Shown: positions 19,652 to 61,332 of the stretch, piece by piece
Position numbering within the stretch: position 1 is the stretch's first letter
Layout of the letters: each line of letters starts with the position of its first letter
Source: Pseudomonadota bacterium
GTDB taxonomy: Bacteria > Pseudomonadota > Gammaproteobacteria > Burkholderiales > Rhodocyclaceae
Length of the DNA stretch: 64,000 nucleotides
Direction: 5' to 3'
NCBI GenBank assembly: GCA_021849505.1
Contig: JAJZSW010000002.1
Span: forward strand, 1 to 64,000
The notes under the pieces: generated by a model
The model's input: the letters and a program-made list of their open reading frames with translations, nothing else
What the model was told of the DNA's origin: nothing
Database searches by the model: none
Made by a program: the position numbers and the translations under genes

Positions 19652-19742
19652 TATTGGAGGAGGGTAGTCCATGCACTGTACTTTCCGGGAAAAACAAGAC
19701 CACCGTAAAACTCGCCTCCGCCGGTGAAATGCCTTGAGGGGC

Positions 19743-19800: not shown

Positions 19801-19861
19801 ACTCGTGTTGGGTATGCCCCGGCAGAATGCTGGCAACACTAAATCAGAGGGTGGTTCCCGC

Positions 19862-21556: not shown

Positions 21557-21588
21557 TGCGGCCCGAACGTGCGACGGAGAACCGAACC

Positions 21589-22449: not shown

Positions 22450-22488
22450 GCAATTTTTCGGACGGTGTGATTTTATGGAGAAACGAGT

Positions 22489-22959: not shown

Positions 22960-22977
22960 GAAAACGACGAAAGGAGT

Positions 22978-23316: not shown

Positions 23317-23462
23317 GTCGAGCCCTGCTGCGCCCGGCGCATCTCCCAGTCCGGTGGGGGACAGGCATCGGGCGGCAGTTTAGCTCGGGTAGTACTCGCA
23401 GATGAAGCAAGGCTCTTCGGACCGGGCGTATTTTCGAGGATGGAAAATCAGGGCCAGCAAAG

Positions 23463-23489
23463 ATGACGCAAATGTAATTCATTTGTCAG
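23463..23489 (+). promoter_or_regulatory. CopR/CusR box-like site 3 (DUF411 gene promoter)
   Basis: ATGACGCAAATGTAATTCATTTGTCAG; CAAAGATGACGCAA context shared with site 4. Confidence 0.55.
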
Positions 23490-23536
23490 GTTGATATGCG
23501 AAATCTTGTTCCATACTGAATTTCGTTTTCCCAAGA

Positions 23537-23977
23537 ATGCCTCGTATGAAAAGTATCGTTGCCAGTTTTCTTGCCATTGCCCAGATGTCCTGGGCTGCCC
23601 CGGCAGTTCCGGTGATTGATGTCTACAAGAGCCCGACTTGCGGGTGCTGCAAGGGGTGGATCGATTATCTCAGGGAAAATGGATTCTCCGTCAGAAGCCA
23701 CGACACGGACAACGTCGTTCAGCACAAGGTTCGGTTCGGCGTACCGTCTGGCTACGGTTCCTGCCATACCGCTGAGATTGGTGGTTATCTGGTCGAAGGT
23801 CACGTCCCGGCCAGGGAAATCAGGCGCCTGCTCAAGGAAAGCCCGCAGGCCCGCGGCCTCACCGTGCCGGCCATGCCGATCGGCTCGCCCGGCATGGAAG
23901 CGGATGGCCGCAAGGATCCCTATAAGGTTTTTCTCGTGGAGCGGGATGGGTCCGTCCAGACCTACGCCCAATACTGA
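23537..23977 (+). CDS. DUF411 metal-binding protein
   Basis: VYKSPTCGCCKGWIDYLRENGF ... GSCHTAEIGGYLVEGHVPA. Confidence 0.88.
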   Translation: MPRMKSIVASFLAIAQMSWAAPAVPVIDVYKSPTCGCCKGWIDYLRENGFSVRSHDTDNVVQHKVRFGVPSGYGSCHTAEIGGYLVEGHVPAREIRRLLKESPQARGLTVPAMPIGSPGMEADGRKDPYKVFLVERDGSVQTYAQY

Positions 23978-24026
23978 AAGAAAAAACAAACCGTAATTCT
24001 CTCTTTACCCACGCAAAGGAGTCACC

Positions 24027-24530
24027 ATGAAATGCCACGCACTGTTTGCCACCCTGATGCTTTCCACCTTGGCCATGCAGCCTGTTTTTGCGGACGACGC
24101 GCACCATCCCGATCAAAAAGCCGGTGCGGCAGCACCCACTGCCGATCAGACGATCCAGAAGATGGAGGCCAATACCAAACGAATGCAGCGTCAGTTGGAG
24201 CAGATGGCCAAGTCCAAAGACCCGAGTCAGCGCCAGAAATTGCTGCAGGAGCACATGCAGACCATGCAGGAAAACATGATGGCGGCGAAAAGCATGATGG
24301 GCGGCATGATGGACTGTCCGATGATGAAAGGCGGGATGATGGGCGGCGGCATGGGCATGATGGGGGGTGGCGGGATGATGGGCCAGGGCATGCCGGGTGG
24401 CATGGCTGGGCAGGACGACATGATGGCCAAGCGCATGGACATGATGGAGAAGCGCATGGACATGATGCAGATGATGATCCAATCGAATAGGGGCAAGCCT
24501 CAGGGCAGCCCTGAGGAACCGGCCAAATGA
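24027..24530 (+). CDS. Methionine-rich periplasmic protein (putative Cu(I)-binding)
   Basis: 167 aa, signal peptide, dense MM/MGGM motifs. Confidence 0.75.
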   Translation: MKCHALFATLMLSTLAMQPVFADDAHHPDQKAGAAAPTADQTIQKMEANTKRMQRQLEQMAKSKDPSQRQKLLQEHMQTMQENMMAAKSMMGGMMDCPMMKGGMMGGGMGMMGGGGMMGQGMPGGMAGQDDMMAKRMDMMEKRMDMMQMMIQSNRGKPQGSPEEPAK

Positions 24531-26311: not shown

Positions 26312-26539
26312 ATGAACGTCAGGATCATTGCTACACGCAGTTGCAGCCACTGCCACAACCTTGAACGCGAGCTCAAAGATTTGGCTGTCGCCTACGAAGT
26401 GCTGTTCGTAGAGGACCATCCGGAAATGGTGCAGCGATATAGCATCCGGCACTCACCCAACCTGGTTGTCGATGACGAAGTGGTGTTCCGCCGCCAGCCA
26501 ACCGAAGGTGAGTTGCGAGCGCTCTTCACGAGTAGCTAA
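26312..26539 (+). CDS. Glutaredoxin-like thiol protein (CSHC)
   Basis: 75 aa, RIIATRSCSHCHNLERELKDL, SPNLVVDDEVV. Confidence 0.75.
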   Translation: MNVRIIATRSCSHCHNLERELKDLAVAYEVLFVEDHPEMVQRYSIRHSPNLVVDDEVVFRRQPTEGELRALFTSS

Positions 26540-31122: not shown

Positions 31123-31365
31123 ATGAAACGCCTTTATTCCGTTCCGCATCAGCATGTGGGAACTATCCAGATAAACCTGGCCGTGTTGGGTTTTTTCGCC
31201 ATCACGGTATTTTTTCTGCTGACCAAGCATCGCGCCCACCTGTTCGGCACGCTGCCCTTCCTGCCGTTGCTTGCCGGTCCGTTTCTGCGTTCCTTCATGC
31301 ATCGCGGTCATGGTGGCAACGGCGAATACCAGCACCCCCATGGCAGCAAAGGAGGCAAGACATGA
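31123..31365 (+). CDS. DUF2933-like small membrane protein
   Basis: FFAITVFFLLTKHRAHLFGTLPFLPLLAGPFL plus HGGHG-type tail. Confidence 0.65.
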   Translation: MKRLYSVPHQHVGTIQINLAVLGFFAITVFFLLTKHRAHLFGTLPFLPLLAGPFLRSFMHRGHGGNGEYQHPHGSKGGKT

Positions 31366-32003
31366 ATGACACTGCGCCTGCCTATGGCTTATGGCTTCTG
31401 GTACTGATCAACTCCGCAGTATTCATCATGTTCGCGTTCAGCTTCACCAAGCCGAAAACGAAGCGCGACTGGCGCTCGTTCGGCGCGTTCTCGGCGTTCA
31501 TTGTCGCGCTGTTCACCGAGATGTACGGTTTTCCGCTGACGATTTATTTGCTCTCCGGCTGGTTGCAGAGCCGCTATCCGGGCGTGGACTTCATGTCGCA
31601 CGATGCCGGCCATCTGCTGGAAGTCATGTTCGGCTGGCGCACCAACCCGCACTTCGGCCCGTTCCACTTGCTGAGCTATGTCTTCATCGGCGGCGGTTTC
31701 TGGCTGCTGGCCTCGGCCTGGAAGGTGCTGTATGCGGCACAAGCGAGCCATACCCTGGCGGTGGCCGGGCCCTATGCCCATATCCGCCATCCGCAGTACG
31801 CGGGGTTCGTGCTCATCATGCTGGGCTTCCTGGTGCAGTGGCCAACGATCCTGACGCTCGCCATGTTCCCGGTGCTGGTATTCATGTACGTGCGCCTGGC
31901 GCGGCACGAGGAGCGCGAGGTGGCGGCCGAGTTCGGCGAGACGTATGCGAGCTACGCGGCGCGCGTGCCGGCGTTCTTTCCAAGGCCAAGCGTCCAGGAT
32001 TGA
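31362..32003 (+). CDS. Isoprenylcysteine carboxyl methyltransferase-like (PEMT/ICMT family) membrane protein
   Basis: GPYAHIRHPQYAGFVLIMLGFLVQWPT, RLARHEEREVAAEFGETYASYAARVPAFFP. Confidence 0.82.
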   Translation: MNDTAPAYGLWLLVLINSAVFIMFAFSFTKPKTKRDWRSFGAFSAFIVALFTEMYGFPLTIYLLSGWLQSRYPGVDFMSHDAGHLLEVMFGWRTNPHFGPFHLLSYVFIGGGFWLLASAWKVLYAAQASHTLAVAGPYAHIRHPQYAGFVLIMLGFLVQWPTILTLAMFPVLVFMYVRLARHEEREVAAEFGETYASYAARVPAFFPRPSVQD

Positions 32004-32074
32004 GGTACCAAAGGCTGACCGAACCGTAGTAGTGCGCTTCATTTTTTCGATGTTTTCGACTGGAGGTATCCATC

Positions 32075-33310
32075 ATGAATCGAAGAAATTTCCTGAAAGG
32101 CGTTTCCGGCGGTCTGGTTCTCGGCGGCGCCGGGCTGGCGTTGCCGCGCATGGCCCTGGCCGCGCCGCTGTCGATGGGCCCGGCGGAGCTGCCGTCCGGG
32201 ACGCTGGAATCCTCGCTGCTGGACGCGCTGCCGGGAAAGAAACCGCTCATCAAGCGCACGTTCCGCGCGCCCAATTACGAAACGCCGGTGGCCTACTTCA
32301 ATGCGCTGTATACGCCCAACGACGTTTTCTTCGTGCGCTACCACGTCATGAACATTCCCGAAGTCGCGGCGGCGACGTGGAAGCTCAGGATCGGCGGCGA
32401 GGCACTGCAGACGCCGATGGAACTGAGCCTGGACGATCTCAGGCGAAGCTTCGAGCGGGTGGAGCTGCCGGCGCTGTGCATGTGCGCCGGCAACCGGCGC
32501 GGGCTGTTCCAGCCCCATGTTCCCGGCGTGCAGTGGGGCAACGGCGCCATGGGCAATGCGCGCTGGGTCGGGGTGCGCCTGCGCGACGTGCTCGACAAGG
32601 CCGGCGTCAGGAAGGAGGCGGTGGAGGTGGTGTTCGACGGCGCGGATTCCGGCATCGCCGCGTACAAGACGCCGGATTTTGTGAAAAGCCTGCCGATGTG
32701 GAAGGCGCTCGACGAGAACACGCTGATCGCCTTCGAGATGAACGGCGCGCCGCTGCCGCACTGGAACGGCTTTCCGGCGCGGCTGGTGGTGCCCGGCTGG
32801 GTCGGGACTTATTGGGTCAAGAATCTCGTGAGCATCGATGTGGTCGCCAAACCGTTCGAGGGCTTCTGGATGAAGCCCGCCTACCGCATCCCGCTCGGCA
32901 AGTTTCCCAACGTGGACCGCTTCATCACGCAGGAAACGGCGGTCAACACGCCGATCACCGACATGGTGGTCAACTCGCTCATCACCAATATCGAGGAAGG
33001 CCAGCGCTTCCGCCCCGGCCAGCCGGTTGACGTGAAAGGCGTGGCCTGGGACGGCGGCTACGGCATCCGCACGGTGGAGGTTTCCGTCGACGAAGGCCAG
33101 TCCTGGCGGCCGGCCGCCCTGGGCCAGGACCTCGGCCGTTTCGCGTGGCGTCCATGGTCGTATCGCTTCAAGCCGGCGCGGCGCGGCAAGCTGACGGTGA
33201 TGGCCAGGGCGTCCAACCGCATCGGCCAGACCCAGACCGCCGAGCTGATCCTCAACCCCGCGGGCTATCACCACAACCTGATCCAGAAGGTGACCATCCA
33301 GGTCGGATGA
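32075..33310 (+). CDS. Periplasmic molybdopterin sulfite oxidase family protein (SorA-like)
   Basis: Tat signal NRRNFLKG; ALCMCAGNRRGLF (Mo-ligand Cys); Mo-co dimerisation domain at C-terminus. Confidence 0.88.
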   Translation: MNRRNFLKGVSGGLVLGGAGLALPRMALAAPLSMGPAELPSGTLESSLLDALPGKKPLIKRTFRAPNYETPVAYFNALYTPNDVFFVRYHVMNIPEVAAATWKLRIGGEALQTPMELSLDDLRRSFERVELPALCMCAGNRRGLFQPHVPGVQWGNGAMGNARWVGVRLRDVLDKAGVRKEAVEVVFDGADSGIAAYKTPDFVKSLPMWKALDENTLIAFEMNGAPLPHWNGFPARLVVPGWVGTYWVKNLVSIDVVAKPFEGFWMKPAYRIPLGKFPNVDRFITQETAVNTPITDMVVNSLITNIEEGQRFRPGQPVDVKGVAWDGGYGIRTVEVSVDEGQSWRPAALGQDLGRFAWRPWSYRFKPARRGKLTVMARASNRIGQTQTAELILNPAGYHHNLIQKVTIQVG

Positions 33311-33323
33311 GAAGGAGACGACC

Positions 33324-33599
33324 ATGAAACGCTTGTTATTGCTTGTGCTGCTGCCGGTGACGGCGGCCGCGGCCGACGAAGGCCAGATTCGTTTGAAGGA
33401 CGGCGCGGGCAAAGCGCTTGTCGAATCCAACTGCGCGACCTGTCACAGCCTCGACTACATCCAGACGAATTCACCGTTTCTGGACAAAAAGGGGTGGGAG
33501 GCCACCCTGAGCAAAATGGTAAACGCGATGGGCGCGCCCGTCCCGAAAGAGGATGTGCCGGCGATTGTCGAGTATCTCAACCGGTATTACGGGAAGTAG
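33324..33599 (+). CDS. Small monoheme cytochrome c (SorB-like)
   Basis: 91 aa, signal peptide, SNCATCHSLDYIQTNSPF. Confidence 0.88.
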   Translation: MKRLLLLVLLPVTAAAADEGQIRLKDGAGKALVESNCATCHSLDYIQTNSPFLDKKGWEATLSKMVNAMGAPVPKEDVPAIVEYLNRYYGK

Positions 33600-33607
33600 G
33601 CGCGTCG

Positions 33608-35164
33608 ATGACCCATGACGCAAGCGATGTGGTGCTTATGATCCCTGACGCGTATCGGGGGTTGTCCCACGCGCTGCGCCTCAAGCGCCTGGGCATCGAC
33701 ACCTACCAGGAACCCGTGATCTATATGCGCAGCGACTGTCACGTGTGCCGTGCCGAGGGCTTCGAGGCGCAGTCGCGCGTGCAGGTCGCGCACAACGGCC
33801 ATGCCATCGTCGCCACGCTGAATGTCGTCACCGGCGATCTGCTGGCGTTAGACGAGGCGGGCCTCTCGGAGGCGGCGTGGCGGCGCCTCGGTGCGCGCGC
33901 GGGCGATGCGGTGGCGCTGTCGCACCCGCCGGTGCTGGAGTCACTGGGCCGGGTGCGCGCCAAGGTGTACGGCGAGCGGCTCGGCGACGCCGACATGCGG
34001 GCGATCGTGCGCGACATTGCCGCGGGACGCTATGCGGACATTCACCTCTCGGCCTTCATCGCCGCCTGCGCCGGCAACCGGCTGGATCTCGACGAAACGG
34101 TCGCGCTCACACGCGCCATGATCGACGCCGGCGAGCACCTTGCCTGGAGGCACGCGCCGGTGGTGGACAAGCACTGCGTTGGTGGTCTGCCGGGCAACCG
34201 CACGACCTTGATCGTGGTGCCGATCGTCGCGGCCTTCGGCCTCACCATGCCCAAGACCTCGTCGCGCGCCATCACCTCGCCCGCGGGCACCGCGGACGTG
34301 ATGGAGACGCTCACCGAGGTCGACCTGGATGTCCCGGCCATGCGCCGGGTGGTGGAGCGCGAAGGCGGTTGCGTCGTCTGGGGCGGCGCGATGCGCCTGA
34401 GCCCCGCGGACGACATCCTGATTCGCGTCGAGCGCCCACTCGATCTCGACAGCGAGGGCCAACTGGTCGCCTCGGTGCTGTCGAAAAAGGCTGCGGCCGG
34501 ATCGAGCCATGTCGTCATCGATGTCCCGGTGGGCGAGACCGCCAAGGTGCGCAGCTGTGAGGCGGCTCAGGCACTGAGCCATCGCCTGATGGAAACCGGT
34601 CGCGCCATCGGCCTCACCGTGCATACGGTTGTCACAGACGGCACCCAGCCCGTGGGCCGTGGCATCGGCCCGGCGCTCGAAGCGCGCGACGTGCTCGCGG
34701 TGCTGCGCCGCGAAGCCGGCGCGCCGGCCGATCTGCGCGAGCGCGCGCTGCAACTCGCCGGTGCGGTGCTCGAATTCGCGCCGGGGATTGCGCCGGGCGA
34801 GGGCGTGCGGCGGGCGCGAGAGATTCTGGGCGACGGCCGCGCGTGGACTAAATTCGAGGCCGTCTGCACAGCCCAGGGCGGCCTGCGCATGCCGCCGGTG
34901 GCGGCGCATACGCGCGCGGTAACGTCCGCGCGGCGCGGGCGCGTGACGGCGATCGACAATCGCCGGCTGGCACGCGTGGCCAAGCTCGCCGGTGCGCCGC
35001 GCGCACCGGCCGCCGGGCTCGACCTGCACGTGCCGCTTGGAACGGAGGTCGAGGCGGGCCAGCCGCTCTTCACGGTGCATGCCGAGGCGCCGGGCGAACT
35101 CGCCTACGCGCTCGACTACGTCGCCGCGCAGCCCGGAATCGTGCGCGTGGAGGCCGAGCCATGA
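33608..35164 (+). CDS. Thymidine/AMP phosphorylase family protein (archaeal AMP phosphorylase-like)
   Basis: VVDKHCVGGLPGNRTTLIVVPIVAAFGLTMPKTSSRAITSPAGTADVME; N-terminal extension. Confidence 0.87.
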   Translation: MTHDASDVVLMIPDAYRGLSHALRLKRLGIDTYQEPVIYMRSDCHVCRAEGFEAQSRVQVAHNGHAIVATLNVVTGDLLALDEAGLSEAAWRRLGARAGDAVALSHPPVLESLGRVRAKVYGERLGDADMRAIVRDIAAGRYADIHLSAFIAACAGNRLDLDETVALTRAMIDAGEHLAWRHAPVVDKHCVGGLPGNRTTLIVVPIVAAFGLTMPKTSSRAITSPAGTADVMETLTEVDLDVPAMRRVVEREGGCVVWGGAMRLSPADDILIRVERPLDLDSEGQLVASVLSKKAAAGSSHVVIDVPVGETAKVRSCEAAQALSHRLMETGRAIGLTVHTVVTDGTQPVGRGIGPALEARDVLAVLRREAGAPADLRERALQLAGAVLEFAPGIAPGEGVRRAREILGDGRAWTKFEAVCTAQGGLRMPPVAAHTRAVTSARRGRVTAIDNRRLARVAKLAGAPRAPAAGLDLHVPLGTEVEAGQPLFTVHAEAPGELAYALDYVAAQPGIVRVEAEP

Positions 35165-36300
35165 AGCCGGTGGTGCTGACCGTCAACACGGGAAGTTCCT
35201 CCGTCCGCCTCGCGGCGTTTGCGCCGGATGGAGAGTCGCTGGCGCGGGGGGCGAGCGCGCATTACTCCGGCGAATGGACCGGCCCGCCGGCCATGCTGCG
35301 CACCTTTATCGAGGGCCACGGCATCGAGGCGGTGGCGGCCGTTGCGCACCGCGTCGTCCACGGCGGCGCGCGCCTCACGGTGCCGTGCCGCATCGACGCC
35401 GCGGTGGAGGCCGAGATCGAGCGGCTGGCCCCGCTCGCGCCGCTGCACAATCCGCACGCGCTCGAATGGATACGCGCCTGCCGCGCGCTGTTCGGGGCGG
35501 AAACCGCGCAGGTGGCGGTGTTCGATACGGCGTTTTACGCTGCGCTGCCGGAGGTCGCTGCGACCTACGCACTGCCGCGCGCGCTCTGCGCGCGCCACGG
35601 CATTCGCCGCTACGGTTTCCACGGGCTCGCGCATCAGGCGATGTGGCGGCGCTGGCGCGAACTGCGGCCCGAGCTGCGCGCGGGCGGGCGCGTGATCTCG
35701 CTGCAGCTCGGCGCCGGCTGCTCGATCACCGCCGTTCGCGACGGGCAGGCCATCGATACGTCGATGGGCTTTTCGCCGCTGGAAGGGCTGGTGATGGCGA
35801 CCCGCAGTGGCGATGTCGATCCCGGGCTGCTGCTGTTTTTGCAACGCGCCGAAGGGCTGACGCCGGAGCGCATGGAACGCCTGCTCAACGAGGAGTCCGG
35901 CCTGCTGGGCCTGTCGGGCGTGAGCGGGCATATGCGCGCGCTGCTGGATGCGGACGACGCGGACGCGCGGCGGGCGGTCGAGGTCTACTGCTACCGCGCG
36001 CGCAAGTATGTCGGCGCCTACCTTGCCGCGCTGGGCGGCGCCGACGCGATCCTGTTCGGCGGCGGCGTGGGCGAGCAGGCGCCCGAGGTGCGCGCGCGGA
36101 TTCTCGATGGCCTAGAAGGGCTGGGCATCGCGCTGGACGAGGACGCCAACCGCGCCGCCATCGGCGCCGAGATGCACATCAGCCATAGCAGCAGCGCAAC
36201 CGCGGTGTGGGTCGTTCCCGTGGACGAGGCCGTGATTTTGGTGCAGGCGGCCGTGATGGCGGCCCCCGAAGCCGTCGGTATTCGGAAGGAAAGTTCATGA
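35161..36300 (+). CDS. ackA: Acetate kinase
   Basis: [35 protein letters not shown] overlap. Confidence 0.9.
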
Positions 36301-38705
36301 ACGAAACCACGATTCAATCCCGGCTCGCAACCGGTCCGCTTGCCAACGAGGAACTGCAGCGCATGGATGCCTGGTGGCGCGCGGCGAACTATCTCTCGGT
36401 CGGGCAGATCTATCTGCTCGACAATCCGCTGCTCAGGGAGCCACTTTCGCTCGCGCACGTCAAGCCCAGGCTGCTCGGCCACTGGGGCACCACGCCCGGG
36501 CTCAATTTCCTCTACGTGCACCTGAACCGCGTCATCAATCAATATGGCCTCGACGTGCTCTACGTCGCCGGCCCCGGCCACGGTGGCCCGGCGCTGGTCG
36601 CCAACACCTGGCTCGAAGGCAGTTACAGCGAGTTCTACCCGAATGTCGGGCGCGATGCAGAGGGCATGAAACGGCTGTTCCGGCAGTTCTCGTTTCCCGG
36701 CGGCATCGGCAGCCACGTCACCGCCGAAACCCCGGGCTCGATTCACGAAGGCGGCGAGCTCGGCTACGCGCTGTCGCATGCCTACGGCGCTGCCTTCGAC
36801 AACCCGGAGCTGATCGTCGCGTGTGTCGTGGGCGACGGCGAGGCCGAAACCGGGCCGCTCGCCGCCGCCTGGCATTCGAACAAGTTTATCAACCCGGCGC
36901 ACGACGGCGCGGTGCTGCCGATCCTGCACCTCAACGGCTACAAGATCGCCAACCCCACGGTGCTCGCGCGCATCCCGCGCGCCGAGCTCGAAAGCCTGTT
37001 CGTGGGCTACGGCTACCGGCCGCACTTCGTCGAGGGTGACGAGCCCACGGCCATGCACCAGCAGATGGCGGCGACGCTGGATGCCGTGGTCGGCGAGATC
37101 CGCGCCATCCGGCAAGCGGCGCGCGCCGGCGGCGTCATCGAACGGCCGCGCTGGCCGATGATCGTTCTCAAGACCCCCAAGGGCTGGACCGGCCCCAAGG
37201 AAGTGGACGGCCAGAAGACCGAGGGCAGCTGGCGCTCGCACCAGGTGCCGTTCGGCGAGCTGGCGGAAAAGCCCGCGCACCTGAAGCTTCTCGAACAGTG
37301 GATGCGGAGCTACAAACCGGAGGAGCTGTTCGACGACAACGGTGTTCTCAGGGCCGAAATTGCGGCGCTCGCCCCCAAGGGAACGCGGCGCATGGGCGCG
37401 AGCCCGCACGCCAACGGCGGGATTCTGCTCAGGGACCTGCAGCTGCCCGATTTCCGCGACTACGCGGTGGACGCGGCGCAACCGGGACAGGTCGAGGCCG
37501 AACCGACGCGCATCCTGGGTAAGTACCTGCGCGACGTGATGCGGCTCAACACCGACTCGCGCAATTTCCGCGTGGTCGGCCCGGACGAGACCAATTCCAA
37601 TCGCCTGGGCGCGCTGTTCGAGGTCACCGACCGGGCCTGGGTGGCCGAGCGCCTGCCGGAGGACGACCATCTCGCCCCCGGCGGGCGCGTCATGGAAATC
37701 CTCTCCGAGCACACCTGCCAGGGCTGGCTCGAAGGCTATCTGCTCACCGGCCGCCACGGGCTGTTCTCGTGCTACGAGGCCTTCATCCACATCGTCGATT
37801 CGATGTTCAACCAGCATGCCAAGTGGCTCAAGGTGAGCCGCGAAATTCCGTGGCGGCGGCCGATCGCTTCGCTGAACTATCTGCTGACCTCGCACGTCTG
37901 GCGCCAGGACCACAACGGCTTCTCGCACCAGGACCCGGGTTTCATCGATCACGTGGTCAACAAGAAGGCTGGCGTCATCCGCGTGTACCTGCCGCCCGAC
38001 GCCAACACGCTGCTGTGCGTCGCCGACTGCTGCCTGCGCTCACGCCATCTGGTGAACGTCATCGTCGCCGGCAAGAACGCGCAGCCGCAGTGGTTGGACA
38101 TGGACGCCGCCATCAAGCACTGCGCGGCCGGGATCGGCCTGTTCGAATGGGCGAGCAGCGACGCCGACGGCGAGCCGGACGTGGTCATGGCGGCGGCCGG
38201 CGACGTGCCGACGCTGGAGATTCTGGCGGCGGTCGACCTGCTGCGCACGCATCTTCCCGATCTCAAGGTGCGGGTGGTGAACGTCGTCGACCTGATGACG
38301 CTGCAGCCCCGCGAAGAGCATCCGCACGGGCTTAACGACCGGGAGTTCGACGGCCTGTTCACCACCGACAAGCCGGTGATCTTCGCCTACCACGGCTATC
38401 CGTGGCTGATTCACCGTCTCACCTACCGCCGCACCAATCATAGGAACCTGCACGTGCGCGGCTACAAGGAGGAGGGCACGACCACCACGCCCTTCGACAT
38501 GGCGGTGCTGAACGACCTCGACCGCTTCCATCTGGTCATCGACGTGATCGACCGCGTACCGACGCTCGGCTACAAGGCCGCTTATTTGAAACAGCTGATG
38601 CGCGACAAGCTCATCGAACACCACGAGTACATCGCGCGCCACGGCCAGGACATGCCGGAGATACTGGCGTGGAAGTGGCCCGACCGCAGCGGGAGGCCCG
38701 CATGA
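36297..38705 (+). CDS. xfp: Phosphoketolase (xylulose-5-P/fructose-6-P)
   Basis: [44 protein letters not shown] overlap. Confidence 0.95.
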
Positions 38706-40465
38706 ACGAACTGAACCGACAGGATGCAACGAACGAAGCCTCGCCGCCGGGGGGGCTGCCCCTGCTCGACGACTTTACCCACGAGCCGCGCGTCGCCTAC
38801 TTCACCATGGAAATCGCGCTGCGCAACGAAATACCGACCTACTCCGGCGGCCTGGGCGTGCTGGCCGGCGATACCGTGCGTTCGGCCGCCGACCTCGTGC
38901 TGCCGCTGGTGGCGGTGAGCCTGGTCTCCCGCGCCGGCTATTTCTGCCAGGCGATCGACGCCCAGGGCCGGCAGGTCGAGCAGGCGGCCACGTGGGAACC
39001 GCACGACTGGGCGCAGCCGCTGGACGCCAAGATCGCCGTGTCGATCGAGGGCCGGGCGGTGTGGATCGGTGCATGGCTGTATGTGCTCGATGGCTACCTG
39101 GGCGGCCGCCAGCCGGTGCTGCTGCTCGATACCGATCTGGACGAGAACCATGCGGACGACCGCGAGATCACGCATTACCTGTACGGCGGCGACGATACCT
39201 ACCGGCTCAAGCAGGAGATCGTGCTCGGCATCGGCGGGGTGCGGCTGCTGCAGGCGCTCGGTTTCAAGATTCGCCATCACCACATGAACGAAGGGCATTC
39301 CGCGCTGCTCGGGCTCGAACTGCTGCGGCGCTATGAATATCCACCCGAAGACCTGCGCCCCGGCGAGCTGCCCTACGACGTGCCGCGGGTACGCGAACAG
39401 TGCAACTTCACCACCCACACGCCGGTCGAGGCCGGCCACGACCGTTTTGCCTACCCGCTGGTGCAGCGCGTGCTCGGCACCATCGTCGATGCTGCGACCC
39501 TGAAGCATCTCGCGGGCGAGGACAGCCTCAACATGACGCGGCTCGCGCTCAACCTGAGCGAATACGTGAACGGCGTGGCCAAGCGCCACGCCGAAATCTC
39601 GAACACGATGTTCCCCGGCTACCGGGTGCACGCCGTCACCAACGGCGTGCACCCCTTCATCTGGACCAGCGAGCCCTTCCGCACGCTCTACGACCGTTAT
39701 CTGCCGAGCTGGTGCCACGAGCCCGAGCAGCTGGTGCGCGCCGACTGCTGCATCCCCGACGCCGCCTTCCGCGAGGCGCACGCGCAGGCGAAGCGGACGC
39801 TGATCGAGCGGGTGCGCGCGCGCAGCGGCGTCAGCCTCGACCCGCAGACGGCCATCCTCGGCTTCGCCCGGCGCATGACCGCGTACAAGCGTCCCGACCT
39901 TCTGTTCAGCGACCTCGAACGCCTCAAGGCCATTGCCCGCCAGCGCCCGTTCCAGGTCGTGCTCGCCGGCAAGGCCCATCCGCGCGACGACGGCGGCAAG
40001 CGGCTGATCGAAGAACTGCACGCCCGGGCGCGCGCACTCGAAGGCAGCGTGCCGGTGGTCTATCTGCCCGACTACGACATGGAGATCGCCCAGGCACTGG
40101 TGGCCGGCGTCGACGTCTGGCTCAACACGCCGCTGCGTCCGTTCGAGGCCTCCGGCACCAGCGGCATGAAGGCGGCGTTCAACGGCGTGCCGAGCCTGTC
40201 GGTGCTGGACGGCTGGTGGATCGAGGGCTGCATCGAGGGGGTGACCGGATGGGCGATCGGCCATGCCGCGGACGCGGACGACGGCGACGCGCGTGCCCTG
40301 TACGACAAGCTCGAACAGGTGGTGCTGCCGCTCTACTATGCTGAGAAGCAGGACGACCCCGCCGGCTGGGTCCGAGTCATGAAGGGCGCAATCAGCAAGA
40401 ACGCGTCCTACTTCAACAGCCACCGCATGATGCGCCGCTACGCGGCCGAGGCGTACATCCGGTGA
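38702..40465 (+). CDS. glgP: Alpha-glucan (glycogen) phosphorylase family
   Basis: [41 protein letters not shown] overlap. Confidence 0.92.
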
Positions 40466-40496
40466 GCCGCCCGCAATGAAGCCAAGGAGCCACACC

Positions 40497-41234
40497 ATGA
40501 GCCTGAACCGACGTGTTTTTCTGGGTCTGGCCGGCGGCGCCGCTGCCGCCGCCGCCCTCGGGCCCGGCCTGAATCTGATCGAACTCGCCCGCGGGCGCCC
40601 TCTCGACGAAGCCGCCTCCAGCCTGCAGCGCTGGGGTTTGCTGATCGATGCCAACCAGTGCGCCGACGGCTGCACCGCCTGCGTCGACGCCTGCTTCACC
40701 GAAAACGGCGTGTGGGGCCACGGGCGGCCCAGGACCGATGCGCAGTGGATCCGCAAGCTGACCGTCACCGACGAGCAGACCGGGCACACGCAGGCCTTCC
40801 CCGTCATGTGCCAGCACTGCGAGTTTCCGCCCTGCGTCGACGTCTGTCCCACCGGGGCGTCGTTCCGCCGCGCCGACGGCATCGTGCTGGTGAACAAGCA
40901 CACCTGCATCGGCTGCCGCTACTGCATGATGGCCTGCCCCTACAAGGCGCGTTCGTTTATTCACGAGCCCACCCACAACCAGAAAGCCTACGCGCCACGC
41001 GGCATCGGCACGGTCGAGTCCTGCACCCTGTGCGTGCACAAGGTGGATCGCGGCGACGGCATCACCGCCTGCGCCGAGGCCTGCCTGCGGGCCGGGCATC
41101 AGGCCATCCTGTTCGGCGACCTGAAAGATCCCGACAGCGAGATCAGCAGGCGCCTGGCGGCGCAGCCTTCGAAGCAGATCAGGGCCGACCTGAACCTGAA
41201 TACCGGCGTGCGTTACCAGAATTTACTGGGATGA
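40497..41234 (+). CDS. Tat-exported 4Fe-4S ferredoxin-type electron-transfer subunit (DsrO/NrfC-like)
   Basis: Tat signal NRRVFLG; CADGCTACVDAC, CQHCEFPPCVDVCP, CIGCRYCMMACP, CTLCVHKV. Confidence 0.88.
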   Translation: MSLNRRVFLGLAGGAAAAAALGPGLNLIELARGRPLDEAASSLQRWGLLIDANQCADGCTACVDACFTENGVWGHGRPRTDAQWIRKLTVTDEQTGHTQAFPVMCQHCEFPPCVDVCPTGASFRRADGIVLVNKHTCIGCRYCMMACPYKARSFIHEPTHNQKAYAPRGIGTVESCTLCVHKVDRGDGITACAEACLRAGHQAILFGDLKDPDSEISRRLAAQPSKQIRADLNLNTGVRYQNLLG

Positions 41235-41256
41235 GGCGGCCGGCGAGGAGATACGG

Positions 41257-41739
41257 ATGAGCACCACGGTCAAGGATCCGGTCTGCGGAATGGAGGTCGA
41301 CCCAGCGCAGTTCGAGACGACATTCGAGGGGTTGCACTATGCCTTCTGCTCGGAGCAGTGCCGGCAGCGCTTCGCCGCCAATCCCCACCTCTACATCGGG
41401 GTGCCCGGCGAGAAGGCGCCCGCGCAGAAGGGCGAGGAACTGCTCAAGCGCCGACGCTTCCAGCTCGACGCGCCGCTCGCCGCGCACGACGCCGCCCTCC
41501 TGACCGAGGCGCTGGGCGCCATGATGGGAGTGAAGGCCGTCGAGATCGTGGGCGACACGGTGACCCTCACCTACGACCTGCTCCAGGCCACGGCGGATCA
41601 GCTCGAAGCGAAGATGGAGGAGGCGGGCGCCAAACTCGGCGCAGGCTGGGCGGAGCGCCTGCGCCGCGGCTTCGTGCATTACATGGAAGATACCGAGGTG
41701 GGAAACCTGGAAGTGCATCCGCACCATGGGCACGGTTAA
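41257..41739 (+). CDS. YHS-domain protein with C-terminal HMA-like region lacking CxxC
   Basis: KDPVCGMEVDPAQFETTFEGLHYAFCSEQCRQRFAANPHLYIG. Confidence 0.82.
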   Translation: MSTTVKDPVCGMEVDPAQFETTFEGLHYAFCSEQCRQRFAANPHLYIGVPGEKAPAQKGEELLKRRRFQLDAPLAAHDAALLTEALGAMMGVKAVEIVGDTVTLTYDLLQATADQLEAKMEEAGAKLGAGWAERLRRGFVHYMEDTEVGNLEVHPHHGHG

Positions 41740-50071: not shown

Positions 50072-50103
50072 CCCGAGCGCCCATGAATTGGCCGGATCCA
50101 AAG

Positions 50104-50130
50104 ATGACGCAACTGTAATCAATCCGTCAG
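50104..50130 (+). promoter_or_regulatory. CopR/CusR box-like site 4
   Basis: ATGACGCAACTGTAATCAATCCGTCAG, aligned end to end with sites 1-3. Confidence 0.55.
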
Positions 50131-50238: not shown

Positions 50239-50478
50239 ATGGACGTGAAAATCATTGCCACGCATGGCTGCACGCACCGGCCGAACCTGGAACGCGAACT
50301 CCGCGACCTGGGGATTCCCTACGAGCTTGTCTATGTGGAGGAGCATCCCGAGGTGGCCGAACGCTACCGCATCCGCCACTCGCCCAACCTGGTCGTCGAC
50401 GACGAAGTGGTATGTCGGGGACAACCCTCGGAGGGTGAAATAAAGGCCTTGCTCCTGCGCCCGAAGCCCGAGGCCTGA
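50239..50478 (+). CDS. Glutaredoxin-like protein with CTHR in place of CxxC
   Basis: KIIATHGCTHRPNLERELRDLGIPYELVYVEEHPEVAERYRIRHSPNLVVDDEVV, clear paralog of 26312-26539. Confidence 0.72.
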   Translation: MDVKIIATHGCTHRPNLERELRDLGIPYELVYVEEHPEVAERYRIRHSPNLVVDDEVVCRGQPSEGEIKALLLRPKPEA

Positions 50479-50547: not shown

Positions 50548-53442
50548 ATGAAACCAAAAAGAAATATCGTCCTCGTCACCGGCTGCAACGGGCGCATCGG
50601 CAGCGTGGTGATGCAGCGGCTGAGCGGACGCTTCAGCGATGTCGTCGGCTTCGACCGCAACGCGCCCGCCCCGCCGCCGCCCGATTGCGTGCGCATCCCG
50701 GTCGACATCGCTTCCGACGACAGCGTGCGCGAGGGACTGCGCATCCTGCGGGAACACCACGGGACCCGCATCGCCGCCGTGGTGCACCTGGCCGCCTATT
50801 ACGATTTCCTCGGCAAGCCGAGCCCGAAATACGACGAGATCACGGTCGAAGGCACGCGGCGCCTTCTGCGCGGGCTGCGCGAGGGCACGGGACGCATGCT
50901 GCGCGGGCTGCGCGAGGGCTTCGCGGTCGAGCAATTCATTTTCGCCAGCACCATGCTCGTGCACCGGCCGGGCGAGCCGGGGGAGCTCATCACCGAGGAC
51001 TCGCCGATCGGGCCGACCTGGGCCTATCCGGAATCGAAAGTCCGCACCGAGGCGGTCATCCGGGCGGATCGCGGCGCCATTCCCGCCGCGATCCTGCGGC
51101 TTGCCGGCGTCTACGACGATGTCTGCCACTCGCCGCCGCTCGCGCACCAGATCCAGCGCATCTACGAGGTGCAGCTCGCCGGCCACCTGTATTCCGGCGA
51201 GACCTCGCACGGCCAGGCCTTCGTCCACCTGGACGACGTGGTTGACGCGATCGAGCGCGCCATCGAGCGGCGCGCCCACCTGCCGCCGGAAACGGCGATC
51301 CTGATCGGCGAGCCGGAGACGCTGAGCTACGACGAATTGCAGCATACGTTTTCGCGGCTGATTCGCGGCGAGTCGTGGGAGACGCACAATGTCCCCGGGG
51401 CGATGGCAAAGGTGGGCGCATGGGTTCAGGACCACATGCCCGGCCAGGATCAGTTCATCAAGCCGTGGATGATCGACCGGGCCAACGATCATTACGCCCT
51501 CGACATCGCGCGCGCCCGTACCTTGCTCGATTGGGCGCCAAGCCGTTCGCTGCGCCAGACCCTGCCGAAGATGGTGGCGGCATTGCAGGCCGACCCGCTC
51601 GGGTGGTACCGCGAGCATGGCCTGGAGCTGCCCGCGTCGTTAACGAAGAAGGCGGCGCGCGCCGTGCCGGGGGCGCCCGGGCAGCCCGATCGTGCCAGCC
51701 ATCCCGAGCACGCACCCGCGCGCGGTCCGGACGCCGCTCCCGCCGGGATGGCGGCCGAACCGGCTGCCACGCACGGCTGCCTGATGCATGTCTGTCCGAT
51801 GCACCCGGAAGTCTGCCAGTCTTCGCCGGGCAACTGCCCGCGGTGCGGCATGACCCTGGAACCCGCCGCGCCGCCGTCCCCGCGGGCGGTTGAATACACC
51901 TGCCCGATGCACCCCGAAGTGGTGCGCAACGAGCCGGGCAACTGCCCCAAGTGCGGCATGACGCTGGTGCCGCGCGGCGCCCCGATGGAACATGGGGGCG
52001 GCGGGCAGGCCGGGCACGGCGACATGATGGTCGAGGACCACCGCAAGCTGCTGTGGCCGCATTATCTCAACCTGATGCTCGGCCTGTGGCTGCTGACCAG
52101 CCCGTTCACGTTGGGCTACCTGAGCGACTTCGTTCCCGACGCCAACCAGTTGCGGGTCATGGCCGAGCGCGGGCTACCGCCGTTCGCGCATCGCAACCTG
52201 CTGATGACCTGGAGCGATGTCGCCAGCGGCATCCTGGTGATCGTGTTCAGTGCGCTGTCCGCGGACGCCTGGCGCCGCAATCCGTGGGCGCAGTGGGCCA
52301 ATGCCTTCGTCGGCCTGTGGCTGCTGTTCGCACCGCTGGTGTTCTGGACCCCGTTGCCCGGCGCCTATGCCAACGGCACCCTGGTGGGCGCGCTGGTGAT
52401 CGCGCTTTCCGTGCTGATCCCGATGATGCCGGGCATGAGCATGGCCGGCATGATGGGCAAGCCGGACGTGCCGCCGGGCTGGGCCTATACGCCGTCGAGC
52501 TGGCTGCAGCGCATGCCGATCGGTGTGCTCGCCCTGATCGGTTTTCTCATCGCGCGCGTCCTGGGCGCCTACCAGCTTGGCCACATCGATAGCGTTTGGG
52601 AGCCGTTTTTCGCGGGTGTCGGCGAGAAGCAGGGCGTGATGAACGGCACCGAGACCATCATCACCTCGAACGTCTCCAAGGCCTGGCCGATCCCCGACGG
52701 GGCGCTGGGCGGTATCGTCTACACGCTTGAACTGGCGATGACCTGGATGGGCGGCAAGGACCGCTGGCGCACCATGCCGTGGATGGTACTGGGGCTGGCC
52801 ATCCTGATTCTGCCGCTGGGTGTCGTCAGCATCTATTTCATCATCATCCAGCCGATCGTGATCGGCACCTGGTGCACGCTGTGCCTGGTCGCCGCGCTCG
52901 CGATGGCGGTGATGATTCCGTATTCGCTCAACGAGTTCGTCGCCATGGGCCAGTTCCTCACCTGGGCGCGCCGCCAGGGCAAACCATTCTGGCGCACCTT
53001 CTGGATCGGCGATGCGATGGACGGCGGCAGCGACGATACGTCCAAGGGGATCGTTGGAACGCCGCGGGAGCAGATCGCGCAGGCCACCCGCGGCGTGACC
53101 TATCCGTGGACGCTGCTGCTCGGCATCGCGATCGGCGTCTGGCTCACCTTCACGCGGCTTGCCTTCGACAGCTCCGGCACCATGGCCGACAGCGATCACC
53201 TGGTCGGCGCCCTGGTGGTGACGTTCTCGATCATGGCCTGGGCCGAGGTCGGGCGCGCCATTCGCTTCATCAATATCCCGTTCGGCGCCTGGCTGATCGC
53301 GGCACCGTGGCTGCTCGACGGCGTCGGTTCGCCGCTCGCGGCCTGGAACGGCGTTATCTGCGGAGTGCTGCTGATTGTATTGGCGATCCCGCGCGGGCCG
53401 GTCAAGGATTCCTATGCGGGCTGGGACCGCTATGTCGTGTAA
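50548..53442 (+). CDS. Multidomain fusion: NAD-dependent epimerase/SDR - 2x heavy-metal-binding motif - SPW - VKOR-like - SPW
   Basis: VTGCNGRIGS and YPESK; two CPMHPEV...NCPxCGMTL; LMLGLWLLTSPFTLG; GTWCTLCLVAALAM. Confidence 0.85.
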   Translation: MKPKRNIVLVTGCNGRIGSVVMQRLSGRFSDVVGFDRNAPAPPPPDCVRIPVDIASDDSVREGLRILREHHGTRIAAVVHLAAYYDFLGKPSPKYDEITVEGTRRLLRGLREGTGRMLRGLREGFAVEQFIFASTMLVHRPGEPGELITEDSPIGPTWAYPESKVRTEAVIRADRGAIPAAILRLAGVYDDVCHSPPLAHQIQRIYEVQLAGHLYSGETSHGQAFVHLDDVVDAIERAIERRAHLPPETAILIGEPETLSYDELQHTFSRLIRGESWETHNVPGAMAKVGAWVQDHMPGQDQFIKPWMIDRANDHYALDIARARTLLDWAPSRSLRQTLPKMVAALQADPLGWYREHGLELPASLTKKAARAVPGAPGQPDRASHPEHAPARGPDAAPAGMAAEPAATHGCLMHVCPMHPEVCQSSPGNCPRCGMTLEPAAPPSPRAVEYTCPMHPEVVRNEPGNCPKCGMTLVPRGAPMEHGGGGQAGHGDMMVEDHRKLLWPHYLNLMLGLWLLTSPFTLGYLSDFVPDANQLRVMAERGLPPFAHRNLLMTWSDVASGILVIVFSALSADAWRRNPWAQWANAFVGLWLLFAPLVFWTPLPGAYANGTLVGALVIALSVLIPMMPGMSMAGMMGKPDVPPGWAYTPSSWLQRMPIGVLALIGFLIARVLGAYQLGHIDSVWEPFFAGVGEKQGVMNGTETIITSNVSKAWPIPDGALGGIVYTLELAMTWMGGKDRWRTMPWMVLGLAILILPLGVVSIYFIIIQPIVIGTWCTLCLVAALAMAVMIPYSLNEFVAMGQFLTWARRQGKPFWRTFWIGDAMDGGSDDTSKGIVGTPREQIAQATRGVTYPWTLLLGIAIGVWLTFTRLAFDSSGTMADSDHLVGALVVTFSIMAWAEVGRAIRFINIPFGAWLIAAPWLLDGVGSPLAAWNGVICGVLLIVLAIPRGPVKDSYAGWDRYVV

Positions 53443-54202: not shown

Positions 54203-54727
54203 ATGAAAACAGTCCTTGCAACCCTGGTCATCGGCGCGCTTCTCGCTGTGCTCGGCGCGCTCGGGGTGGTCTATTCGGGCCTCTTCAACGTGGCGGCGAC
54301 GGTGGAGGACGCGCCGCTGCTGCGCTGGGCGCTGGTCGCCACGCGCGAAGCTTCCATCAAACGCCATGCGCGCGACATTCACGCGCCGCCGCCGGGTGGC
54401 GTGGCGCAGGTGGAAACCGGGTTTCGCATCTACCGGGAGTGGTGTGTCATGTGCCACGTCCCGCCTGGCCGGCCGGGGCCGCCGATGGCGAAAGGGCTGA
54501 ACCCGGAGGCACCCGACCTGGTGGAGGCAGCCGAGGAGATGAGCCCTGCCGAGTTGTTCTGGGTGACCAGGAACGGCATCCGGTTCACCGGCATGCCGGC
54601 CTGGGCGGCGACGCTCAGCGACGCGCAGATGTGGGATGCGGTCGCGTTCATGAAGACGCTGCCGCAAATGAAACCCGCGGATTACGATGCGCTGGAGCGT
54701 CGCATCCCGCTCGCGCCCCAACAGTGA
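54203..54727 (+). CDS. Membrane-anchored monoheme cytochrome c
   Basis: N-terminal TM; EWCVMCHVPPGRPGPP; GMPAWAATLSDAQMWDAVAFMKTLP. Confidence 0.88.
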   Translation: MKTVLATLVIGALLAVLGALGVVYSGLFNVAATVEDAPLLRWALVATREASIKRHARDIHAPPPGGVAQVETGFRIYREWCVMCHVPPGRPGPPMAKGLNPEAPDLVEAAEEMSPAELFWVTRNGIRFTGMPAWAATLSDAQMWDAVAFMKTLPQMKPADYDALERRIPLAPQQ

Positions 54728-57548: not shown

Positions 57549-58892
57549 ATGGAGATTTCTTTAACGGAAAGCACCGGGGCAAACCGGGCGAAGCAGGTCG
57601 TGCGGCGGACTTTCCGCGCTTATCCTGGCAGCCTGGCGGTGCGCCTGTGGAATGGCGAGACCCTGACGATTGGCCGGGGCCAGCCGGATTTCACCCTGGT
57701 CTTCCATGACCCCCGCCCCTTCCGCGACCTGATCCTGTTCCGTGATCCCCTGCGCCTGGCCGAGGCCTATTTTCAAGGTTCGATGGACGTGGAGGGGGAT
57801 ATCTACGCAGCGCTCGGCCTGAAGGATCACCTGCAATCCGTGGCCCTGACCCTCGCCGATAAAGCCGCTTTCCTGGCGACGGCCCTGCTGCTGGCGGACA
57901 GCCCGCGTACGAAGGCCGCTGCCGGCGTGTCGAGGGGGGCGAAACCGCTGCTGGCCCACCTTCCCCGCAGGCATTCCCGACGCACCAACCGCCAGGCCAT
58001 CGCCTTCCATTACGACGTCTCCAATGATTTCTATCGAATCTGGCTCGACGCGCAGATGGTCTATTCCTGCGCCTACTTCGAGGAGGCCGACGACAGCCTG
58101 GAGCAGGCACAGGAAAACAAGCTAGACCACCTCTGCCGCAAGCTGCGGCTCCGGCCCGGCGAACGCCTGCTCGATATCGGCTGCGGCTGGGGCGCCTTGA
58201 TCCGCTGGGCGGCCGTGCATTACGGCGTGATCGCCCACGGCATCACCCTCAGCCGCAATCAATACGAGCACTGCCTGCATCAGATCGCTGAAGCTGGCCT
58301 GCAGGGCCGGGTCAGCGTGGAACTGAAGGACTACCGCGACCTGGAAGGCGAGGCGGTGTACGACAAGATCGTCAGCGTCGGCATGTTCGAGCACGTCGGC
58401 ATCGGGAATTTCCCCGTCTACTTCGAGACGGCCCGCCGCCTGCTGAAACCGGGCGGGCTGTTCCTGAATCATGGCATCACCCACGATACGGAAGGCTGGC
58501 GCAAAAGCGTCTCGACGACGTTCATCAACCGCTACGTGTTCCCCGACGGCGAACTGGACACGGTGAGCAACGTGCAGCGCGCCATGGAGCGCTCCGGCTT
58601 CGAAATCCTGGACGTGGAGGCGCTTCGCCCCCACTACGCCCTGACCCTGCGGCACTGGGTGCGGCGCCTCGAACACCGCCGGGACGAGGCCTTGCGGCAC
58701 GTCCCCGAGCCGACCTACCGGGTCTGGCGCCTGTATATGGCGGCCTGCGCCCTGGCCTTCGAGGCGGGCGACGCGGGCGTCTACCAGATACTGGCCGGCA
58801 AACGCGCCAAGGGCGTGAATCCGGTTCCCCTGACGCGGCGGGATGTTTATCGGCATGAAAGCACGATGGCTGTTTCTACGGAGGCCGCATGA
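57549..58892 (+). CDS. cfa: Cyclopropane-fatty-acyl-phospholipid synthase family
   Basis: HYDVSNDFYRIWLDAQMVYSCAYFEE, LLDIGCGWGALIRWAA. Confidence 0.92.
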   Translation: MEISLTESTGANRAKQVVRRTFRAYPGSLAVRLWNGETLTIGRGQPDFTLVFHDPRPFRDLILFRDPLRLAEAYFQGSMDVEGDIYAALGLKDHLQSVALTLADKAAFLATALLLADSPRTKAAAGVSRGAKPLLAHLPRRHSRRTNRQAIAFHYDVSNDFYRIWLDAQMVYSCAYFEEADDSLEQAQENKLDHLCRKLRLRPGERLLDIGCGWGALIRWAAVHYGVIAHGITLSRNQYEHCLHQIAEAGLQGRVSVELKDYRDLEGEAVYDKIVSVGMFEHVGIGNFPVYFETARRLLKPGGLFLNHGITHDTEGWRKSVSTTFINRYVFPDGELDTVSNVQRAMERSGFEILDVEALRPHYALTLRHWVRRLEHRRDEALRHVPEPTYRVWRLYMAACALAFEAGDAGVYQILAGKRAKGVNPVPLTRRDVYRHESTMAVSTEAA

Positions 58893-59311
58893 GGCGAACG
58901 CTCGCGGGCCTCGCGCTCGCCATAGCCGGCATTCCGCTCGCTCCGCCGGCATGGCCGCAAGCGGTTGAGCACAAGCCGAGACTGCAATCGCACAGTGCGA
59001 TGGAGCACGAGATGGACCGCTTCCGCACAGACCTCGCCGCCCTGCGCGAGGCGATGATTCGCTTTCGCGAGCTTTGTCGTCGCGAGCGGCAAGCGGCCCT
59101 CAAGCCGCATCTGGAACGCGTGCGCGACAACATGGAGCGGGCACTCGCGATGGAAGAACAGATGCAACAGGACCTCAACGGTGGCCGGATGGTGAGCGAC
59201 AGCGAGTTGCGTCACCGGATCCGGCTTCTCGGAGAGCAGGTGCGCATGCTGATCGAGATGAACGCGTTGGCGCTCGATGAAACCGAGCGGCCCGACTGTT
59301 CCAATCCATGA
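58889..59311 (+). CDS. Hypothetical periplasmic protein
   Basis: Signal-like N-terminus, helical; ATGA overlap with the CFA synthase gene. Confidence 0.6.
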   Translation: MRRTLAGLALAIAGIPLAPPAWPQAVEHKPRLQSHSAMEHEMDRFRTDLAALREAMIRFRELCRRERQAALKPHLERVRDNMERALAMEEQMQQDLNGGRMVSDSELRHRIRLLGEQVRMLIEMNALALDETERPDCSNP

Positions 59312-59345
59312 ATCGGGTGACGCCCGGCGGCGGGCGGCGAATATG

Positions 59346-59386
59346 CGGAGACGGCCACGGCCGGTTGGCGCCCGTGGCCGTCTCCG
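59346..59386. repeat. 15-bp perfect inverted repeat (11-nt loop) upstream of ftsH
   Basis: CGGAGACGGCCACGG-CCGGTTGGCGC-CCGTGGCCGTCTCCG. Confidence 0.8.
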
Positions 59387-59436
59387 GGGACATGAGGCGC
59401 TGCGTGCGGACGAGGTTCCGACTCTAACGGTGAGAC

Positions 59437-61332
59437 ATGGAAAAGACACGGCAACAGTTTTCGCTCTGGTACTTCCTGATCGTATTCCTGGCGATCCTGG
59501 CGATGCAGAACTTCCTGTTCGCGCCGCACGCAGCGAACCTCGCCTACAGCGAGTTCAAGACGCTGCTCCAGGCCGGCAAGATCGATAAGATTGAGCTCGG
59601 CGAGCGCACGATCAGCGGAACGCTCAAGCCCGACGGACTCGCGGGCCTGCTGCCGAACAAACAGATCGAGGAACTCAAGCGCGCGGGAGAAGGCAAGGAA
59701 CACCGTTTCGTCACGGTGCGCGTCGACGATCCCAACCTCGTCAAGGAGCTCGAAGCGGCCAAGGTGCGCTTCGCCGGCCAGATCGAGAGCAAGTGGCTCT
59801 CCACGCTGCTCTCCTGGATTCTGCCCGCCGTCGTTTTCTTCGCGCTGTGGGGATTCATCATGAAGCGCATGGGCGGCGCGGCCGGCGGATTCATGGAGAT
59901 CGGCAAGAGTCGCGCCAAGGTCTACATGGAGAAGCAGACCGGTGTGACATTCGAGGATGTCGCCGGGGTGGGCGAGGCCAAGGAGGAGCTGAAGGAGATC
60001 ATCGAGTTCCTCAGGAACCCCAAGGCATACGGCAAGCTCGGCGCGCGCATGCCGAAGGGCGTGCTGCTGGTCGGCCCACCCGGCACCGGCAAGACCCTGC
60101 TCGCGCGTGCGGTGGCGGGCGAGGCCAGCGTGCCGTTCTTCTCCATCAGCGGTTCGGAGTTCGTGGAAATGTTCGTGGGCGTGGGCGCGGCGAGGGTGCG
60201 CGATCTGTTCGAGCAGGCGCGTGGCAAGGCCCCGGCAATCATCTTCATCGACGAACTCGACGCCCTCGGGCGGGCGCGCGGGGCGTATCCGCTCGCCGGC
60301 GGGCACGACGAGAAGGAGCAGACCCTGAACCAGCTGCTGTCCGAGATGGACGGCTTCGACCCGAGCCAGGGACTGGTGCTGCTCGCCGCCACCAACCGCC
60401 CGGAGATTCTCGACCCCGCGCTGCTGCGCGCCGGGCGCTTCGACCGCCAGGTGCTGGTGGACCGCCCGGACAAGAAAGGGCGCATGGACATCCTCAGGGT
60501 GCATCTGAAGAAAGCACACCTGGCCGCCGATGTCGATCCGGAGCAGATCGCCGCGCTGACCCCCGGCTTTTCCGGCGCCGATCTTGCCAATCTGGTTAAC
60601 GAGGCTGCGCTGCTCGCCACGCGCCGCGGCGCCGAAGCCGTTGGGCTCGACGATTTCACCGCGGCGGTGGAACGCATCGTCGCGGGCCTGGAGAAAAAGA
60701 ACCGGCTGCTCAACCCGAAGGAGCGCGAGATCGTCGCCTTCCATGAGATGGGCCACGCGTTGGTGGCGCTGTCGCTCCCCGGCACCGACCCGGTGCACAA
60801 AGTCTCGATCATCCCGCGCGGCATCGGCGCGCTCGGCTACACCATCCAGCGCCCGACCGAGGACCGCTACCTGATGACGCGGGAGGAGCTGGAAAACAAG
60901 ATGGCCGTGCTGCTGGGGGGGCGTGCCTCGGAGCACATCGTGTTCGGTCATCTCTCGACCGGCGCGGCCGACGACCTCGCCAAGGTGACCGACATCGCGC
61001 GTGGCATGGTCATGCGCTACGGTATGGACGCGAAGCTCGGGCACGTCGCCTACGAGGCCGAGCACCCGGCATTCCTGCAAATGCCCGATGCGATGCCCAG
61101 GATGCGCGAATACAGCGAAGAGACCGCGCGCGAGATCGACCGCGCGGTGCGCGACATCCTGCAAACAGCGTTCGACCGGGCGTCCGCGGTCCTGAACGAG
61201 CGGCGCGAGACGCTCGAGCGCGGCGCGCACGAACTGCTCGCCCATGAAACGCTGACCGAAGGCGCGCTGCGCGAACTGCTCGAGCCGGGGCTGCCCGCGG
61301 CCGCAGCGGCGGGCGCCGCGCAGCCCGAATAA
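59437..61332 (+). CDS. ftsH: ATP-dependent zinc metalloprotease FtsH
   Basis: [37 protein letters not shown]. Confidence 0.95.

Follow-up and report, generated by a model that had tools for sequence, protein, structure and literature searches.

Proteins in which an NAD-dependent epimerase domain is fused to a VKOR domain embedded in SPW repeats have entered sequence databases under one of two kinds of names, either "NAD-dependent epimerase" and "NAD-dependent epimerase/dehydratase family protein" or "vitamin K epoxide reductase family protein" and "VKOR family protein." A 2021 paper mentions SPW proteins bearing VKOR or epimerase domains (PMC8078820). Our search of the open literature retrieved neither papers on the Epimerase-SPW-VKOR-SPW fusion nor a published function for such proteins, of which WP_189424537.1 and WP_015447607.1, found on plasmids in copper or metal islands, are examples. 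The modules of these proteins are related to described systems. Enzymes of the VKOR/DsbB type share a VKOR fold, a CxxC motif, and a loop serine. Their loop cysteine pair (Cys43/Cys51 in human) has been called fully conserved in the VKOR family, in a survey from which sequences lacking conserved residues had been removed (PMC4555120). Extended SDRs of the UDP-sugar 4-epimerase type are recognized by a glycine-rich motif, a Ser/Thr-Tyr-Lys catalytic set, and a common fold. Copper-exporting P-type ATPases (8ovl and 3rfu) carry an HMBD with the metal-binding motif CPMHPE...CPxCGM.

The window analyzed here, by which we mean the entire stretch of 64,000 nucleotides (positions 1 to 64,000 of contig JAJZSW010000002.1 from a Rhodocyclaceae genome, GCA_021849505.1), contains a gene at positions 50548 to 53442 of the forward strand encoding an Epimerase-HMBD2-SPW-VKOR-SPW protein. 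Translation gave 964 amino acids with no internal stop, and the gene was found as a single copy in one open frame in the 2.75-Mb source genome, in agreement with the original prediction of an uninterrupted open reading frame. An alternative in-frame GTG start at position 50509 would extend the product to 977 residues. All Pfam matches exceeded the gathering score (Epimerase, residues 8 to 254; two HMBDs; SPW in three stretches; VKOR, residues 657 to 793). The motifs initially reported were all present, namely, TGCNGRIG, YPESK (Y160 and K164), the cores of the two HMBDs (residues 416 and 452), and CTLC (residues 776 to 779), and SPW repeats were located on both sides of the VKOR-like domain. 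The two halves, epimerase and membrane, had pN/pS ratios of 0.2 to 0.3, versus 0.5 to 0.6 for the linker, indicating that all parts of the fusion are maintained by purifying selection.

The fusion had been considered novel, but an architecture search showed that it is common and already annotated. The window protein displays the domain order and the conserved SPW/VKOR core of the Epimerase-SPW-VKOR-SPW family and is 45 to 60% identical to annotated members such as WP_189424537.1 and WP_015447607.1, which, unlike the window protein, have no HMBD linker. A genome scan returned at least 470 confirmed relatives. The family also occurs in the model organism Sinorhizobium meliloti, on pSymB. The tblastn searches matched 429 plasmid records, many of them through the epimerase alone, and at least 80% of the query was covered at one place in 116 of these records. 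Among whole genomes of the same class, the fusion was patchy (8/369), as expected for an accessory gene. Within a set of 98 SPW-VKOR-SPW proteins, the epimerase was fused in 73, encoded by a separate adjoining gene in 10, and not seen in 15, 5 of which run off a contig edge while the others stand alone. The parts are therefore not always encoded separately, as the original prediction had envisaged as a reason to discard it. This set was mostly retrieved with the peptide patterns RWRTMPW and AWPxxD..L, and the invariance of these two patterns is for that reason partly by construction. An assembly-made join of two neighboring genes could be suspected from two close relatives (L004 and L005) that encode two overlapping genes with HMBDs on either side of the break. 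However, seven or more other assemblies carry the HMBD-bearing fusion, and dozens more, among them complete plasmids, carry the HMBD-free one. We consider such an artifact extremely improbable and rejected it on the basis of these independent assemblies and plasmids; the gene is a single, genuine fusion. Thus, the HMBD-bearing form is a variant of a widespread, uncharacterized family, and it is the extra HMBD linker, rather than the fusion, that makes the window protein unusual.

The extended SDR or NAD-dependent epimerase domain (residues 1 to 360; positions 50548 to 51627) was recognized by Pfam (PF01370 above the cutoff), by its relatives, and by a fold match, and contains the GxxGxxG motif, D36, S134, Y160, and K164, that is, the GxxGxxG and Ser/Thr-Tyr-Lys features of extended SDRs. 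Catalytic residues Y160 and K164 were invariant in the 83 relatives compared, S134 was kept in 81, and the glycines were conserved. An NAD(H)-favoring Asp was present in 79, suggesting a preference for NAD(H). The predicted fold is closest to that of UDP-sugar epimerases. This likeness does not fix the substrate. The domain is ~20% identical to SDRs of the UDP-sugar 4-epimerase type, from which it also differs by its tethering to a membrane core, and it reached none of the NCBIfam equivalog cutoffs. Alignment with relatives and the model also revealed an 11-residue insertion containing a near-duplication of LRGLREG (positions 50878 to 50910), which was modeled with low confidence, was missing in 81 of the 83 relatives, and is apparently common to the window protein and one relative, L030.

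The two HMBDs of the linker, CPMHPEVCQSSPGNCPRCGMTL (positions 51787 to 51870) and CPMHPEVVRNEPGNCPKCGMTL (positions 51895 to 51978), were identified by Pfam and position. They share the metal-binding motif of the copper ATPase domains but occupy a different setting, between the SDR and the membrane core. HMBDs are confined to one clade, which comprises the window protein and those of Thiogranum, Sulfuriferula, Hydrogenophilales, Devosia, and others, with one to four copies per protein, and their presence on the tree requires two changes. The linker may bind Cu(I) in this clade. The position of the gene break in L004 and L005, flanked by HMBDs, designates the linker as a site of fission or fusion.

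For the membrane half, AlphaFold run with 40 sequences gave a pLDDT of 86.8 and 12 long helices, corresponding to 4 SPW, 4 VKOR, and 4 SPW helices, whereas the full-length model had a pTM of 0.50. Pfam and the AlphaFold helices place the N-terminal SPW pair (about four transmembrane helices) at positions 52015 to 52467 and the C-terminal pair (also about four) at positions 53065 to 53439. Loop charges are consistent with both termini being cytosolic; the SDR and the HMBDs would then lie on that side of the membrane, and CTLC close to the periplasmic face. Between the first SPW pair and the VKOR-like domain lies a Met-rich motif, PMMPGMSMAGMM (positions 52420 to 52455), a candidate Cu(I) site. 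The corresponding pattern, PMMPGMSMxGMM, was conserved in the main clade of the family and missing in an outer clade (Sinorhizobium and others), whose members mostly have no copper neighbors either.

The VKOR-like domain (four transmembrane helices; positions 52495 to 52947) was identified by Pfam, hhalign, and Foldseek. Comparison with ordinary four-cysteine VKORs of the same class by hhalign gave a P value of 2.4e-8, and Foldseek gave probabilities of 0.96 for 6wv3 and 0.80 for 3kp9, although with E values of ~0.5; a profile search of solved structures with the membrane half as the query detected no convincing sequence relative. The domain has the four-helix fold and is homologous to VKOR. 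As originally noted, it has no obvious loop cysteine pair: there is no Cys between residue 657 and C776, and the pair is absent from the window protein and from all 98 relatives. In the hhalign alignment, the second loop Cys position corresponds to T701, and the loop Ser is kept (S707). The active-site CxxC, equivalent to Cys132/Cys135, is present in the window protein as CTLC (C776 and C779; positions 52873 to 52884). It was intact in 74 of the 98 relatives, including the whole clade of the window protein, and replaced by SxxA in the other 24, which form two separate lineages. Since the loop pair is absent from all 98 proteins and the CxxC has been lost in two lineages, a DsbB/VKOR-type disulfide relay is unlikely to be the function of the family, and the proposed quinone/disulfide redox coupling, as in VKOR or DsbB, found no support. 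The CxxC, kept in most relatives and throughout the window clade, may still have some function involving thiols or metals. The protein thus departs from VKOR/DsbB enzymes by the lack of the loop pair, by a CxxC that is dispensable in the family, by its SPW surroundings, and by the fused SDR.

The window is a copper-resistance island. Its copper genes encode a CusS-like kinase and a CopR/CusR/SilR-type regulator (above the TIGR01386 and TIGR01387 cutoffs), CusCBA-type efflux, the CopA oxidase, CopB, a cupredoxin, and DUF411, together with a copper ATPase of the YHS type and a P-ATPase of the HMA type. Positions 11370 to 24527 form a complete copper-resistance cluster (CusS/CusR-like pair, CusCBA, CopA oxidase, CopB, cupredoxin, and DUF411), within which palindromic TTACAnnTnTGTAAT boxes occur at positions 13514 and 19774. 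The original prediction had connected the fusion with copper through an upstream CopR-like box, and the connection proved stronger than it had supposed. The box is indeed present, at positions 50105 to 50119, and the consensus TGACANNNNTGTNAT with at most one mismatch had 9 matches in the window versus 1.5 expected, a number reached in none of 100 shuffles; such boxes were, however, not enriched upstream of relatives (0.047 versus 0.027 per kb). The box belongs to a 28-bp CopR/CusR-like promoter element (positions 50103 to 50130, forward strand), of which a genome pattern search allowing three mismatches found exactly two copies, one before the thioredoxin-like/fusion gene pair and the other (positions 23462 to 23489, forward strand) upstream of the DUF411 gene (positions 23546 to 23977). 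The pattern was derived from these two sites, and its informative part is their mutual match and the lack of a third site. A consensus scan for a sigma-70-type promoter found none. With a box and a CusRS-like pair both present, the genes form a candidate CopR/CusR regulon. Among 72 relatives with long flanks, 47 had copper genes within ~7 kb, a raw count that includes a MerR cluster possibly containing non-copper regulators. Copper neighbors likewise occurred on annotated plasmids. Several loci of the HMBD clade lacked copper genes within 7 kb.

The box and the fusion are separated by a gene that had been overlooked (positions 50239 to 50478, forward strand), which encodes a 79-residue thioredoxin-like protein (PF13192) with a single-Cys CTHR motif. 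It has a paralog at positions 26312 to 26536 with the motif CSHC, the pair being 75 to 79 residues long and the CTHR form having lost the second Cys; the CTHR form is also found in HMBD-clade relatives L024, L029, and L030. On the other side of the fusion, domain searches and neighbor comparison identified a membrane-anchored mono-heme cytochrome c (positions 54203 to 54727, forward strand) as a recurrent neighbor in the HMBD clade, its gene directly following the fusion or its split form in L004, L031, L032, L033, and L039. A CFA synthase and a PEMT/ICMT-like methyltransferase also recur around HMBD-clade fusions; ICMT genes are part of copA clusters in Alteromonas (PMC8478169). In the window, positions 31362 to 41736 and 57549 to 61329 are a combined metal and membrane-stress island, with genes for an ICMT/PEMT-like methyltransferase, a molybdopterin oxidoreductase, a phosphoketolase, a phosphorylase-like protein, a YHS protein, a CFA synthase, and an FtsH-like protease. 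In haloarchaea, Nitrospirota, and Pseudomonas-like genomes, genes for a stand-alone SPW-VKOR protein have a second SDR gene and a GH15 gene as neighbors; the membrane core is thus associated with an SDR also where the two are not fused. On plasmids of haloarchaea and Candidatus Manganitrophus (L121, L122, and L123), genes for the stand-alone SPW-VKOR protein, the SDR, and GH15 form a cassette near copper genes, a set conserved across domains.

The reading that we favor, with a confidence just short of an even chance, is a copper-induced protein with 12 transmembrane helices, a cytosolic NAD-dependent SDR, and a VKOR fold that no longer makes disulfides. The protein would be an accessory inner-membrane component of the copper-resistance island, probably induced together with DUF411 by a CusRS/CopRS-type system. 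Its NAD(H)-dependent extended SDR would be tethered in the cytosol, via a copper-binding HMBD linker, to the SPW2-VKOR-SPW2 core, in which the relay-less VKOR fold would act as a membrane scaffold or anchor binding a quinone, an isoprenoid, or another lipid. Under copper stress, the SDR would act on a substrate that is derived from the membrane or is a sugar lipid. This reading is favored by the invariant SDR residues, the absent loop cysteines and lost CxxC, the VKOR homology, the 12-helix model, and the purifying selection, as well as by the copper island, the element shared only with DUF411, the copper neighbors of relatives, and the SDR near the unfused core. It is weakened by the CxxC kept in 74 of 98 proteins, the lack of box enrichment, the HMBD-clade loci without copper genes, the outer clade devoid of the Met-rich motif and mostly of copper neighbors, and the low pTM of the full-length model. 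A more specific version, in which this thiol-free branch of VKOR provides the membrane half of a copper-induced NAD-dependent oxidoreductase acting on a quinone or another membrane lipid and is adjusted to Cu(I) by cytosolic HMBDs, is unlikely.

The cysteines that are kept bear on another possibility, a thiol oxidoreductase as originally proposed, in which a CxxC-only VKOR would link quinone to a thiol partner in the periplasm by electron transfer, the SDR contributing NADH chemistry. Retention of CTLC in 74 of 98 proteins and in the window clade, the occurrence of DsbA, CcdA, or TlpA genes in the vicinity of 18 of the 72 relatives, and the thioredoxin-like gene upstream of the fusion speak for such an enzyme. 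We nevertheless judge it quite unlikely, as the loop pair is universally missing, the two lineages devoid of CxxC retain the same fusion and copper context, and the upstream thioredoxin-like protein has CTHR rather than CxxC and is expected to be cytosolic. The same CxxC, together with the HMBDs and the Met-rich motif, might instead serve to bind copper or hand it on at the membrane, in a Cu(I)-handling protein with the SDR as a redox or sensory module. The similarity of the HMBDs to those of copper ATPases, the conservation of the Met-rich motif in the main clade, and the copper island with the promoter element shared with DUF411 point in that direction, but HMBDs are limited to one clade, Foldseek returned no transporter fold among the structure matches, and the SDR catalytic residues are conserved above any metal ligand, making this role improbable. 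The fold likeness to UDP-sugar epimerases and the neighboring GH15, SDR, CFA synthase, and methyltransferase genes would also suit an envelope-remodeling enzyme whose SDR epimerizes or oxidizes a nucleotide sugar or glycolipid presented by the membrane part. No glycosyltransferase or polymer-export genes were seen nearby, and fold similarity leaves the substrate unfixed, so that we regard this last option as quite improbable.

Automatic VKOR annotation is misleading, because these proteins of copper islands and plasmids are probably not ordinary disulfide-forming enzymes. The VKOR-labeled set concerned spans proteobacteria, Bacteroidota, Nitrospirota, and haloarchaea, and its members appear to contribute to bacterial copper tolerance as a mobile component that has escaped study.

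Two further comparisons concern the halves of the protein. The membrane halves encoded by a Jiella plasmid (L017), annotated as split, and by Aurantimonas (L043), in which the gene is fused, are nearly identical, the difference being either a recent split or a frameshift. In L030 (positions 5528 to 8413), the epimerase half is the closest to that of the window protein (pS of 0.25), whereas its membrane half has diverged further (pS of 0.43), a mismatch hinting at recombination between the two halves.
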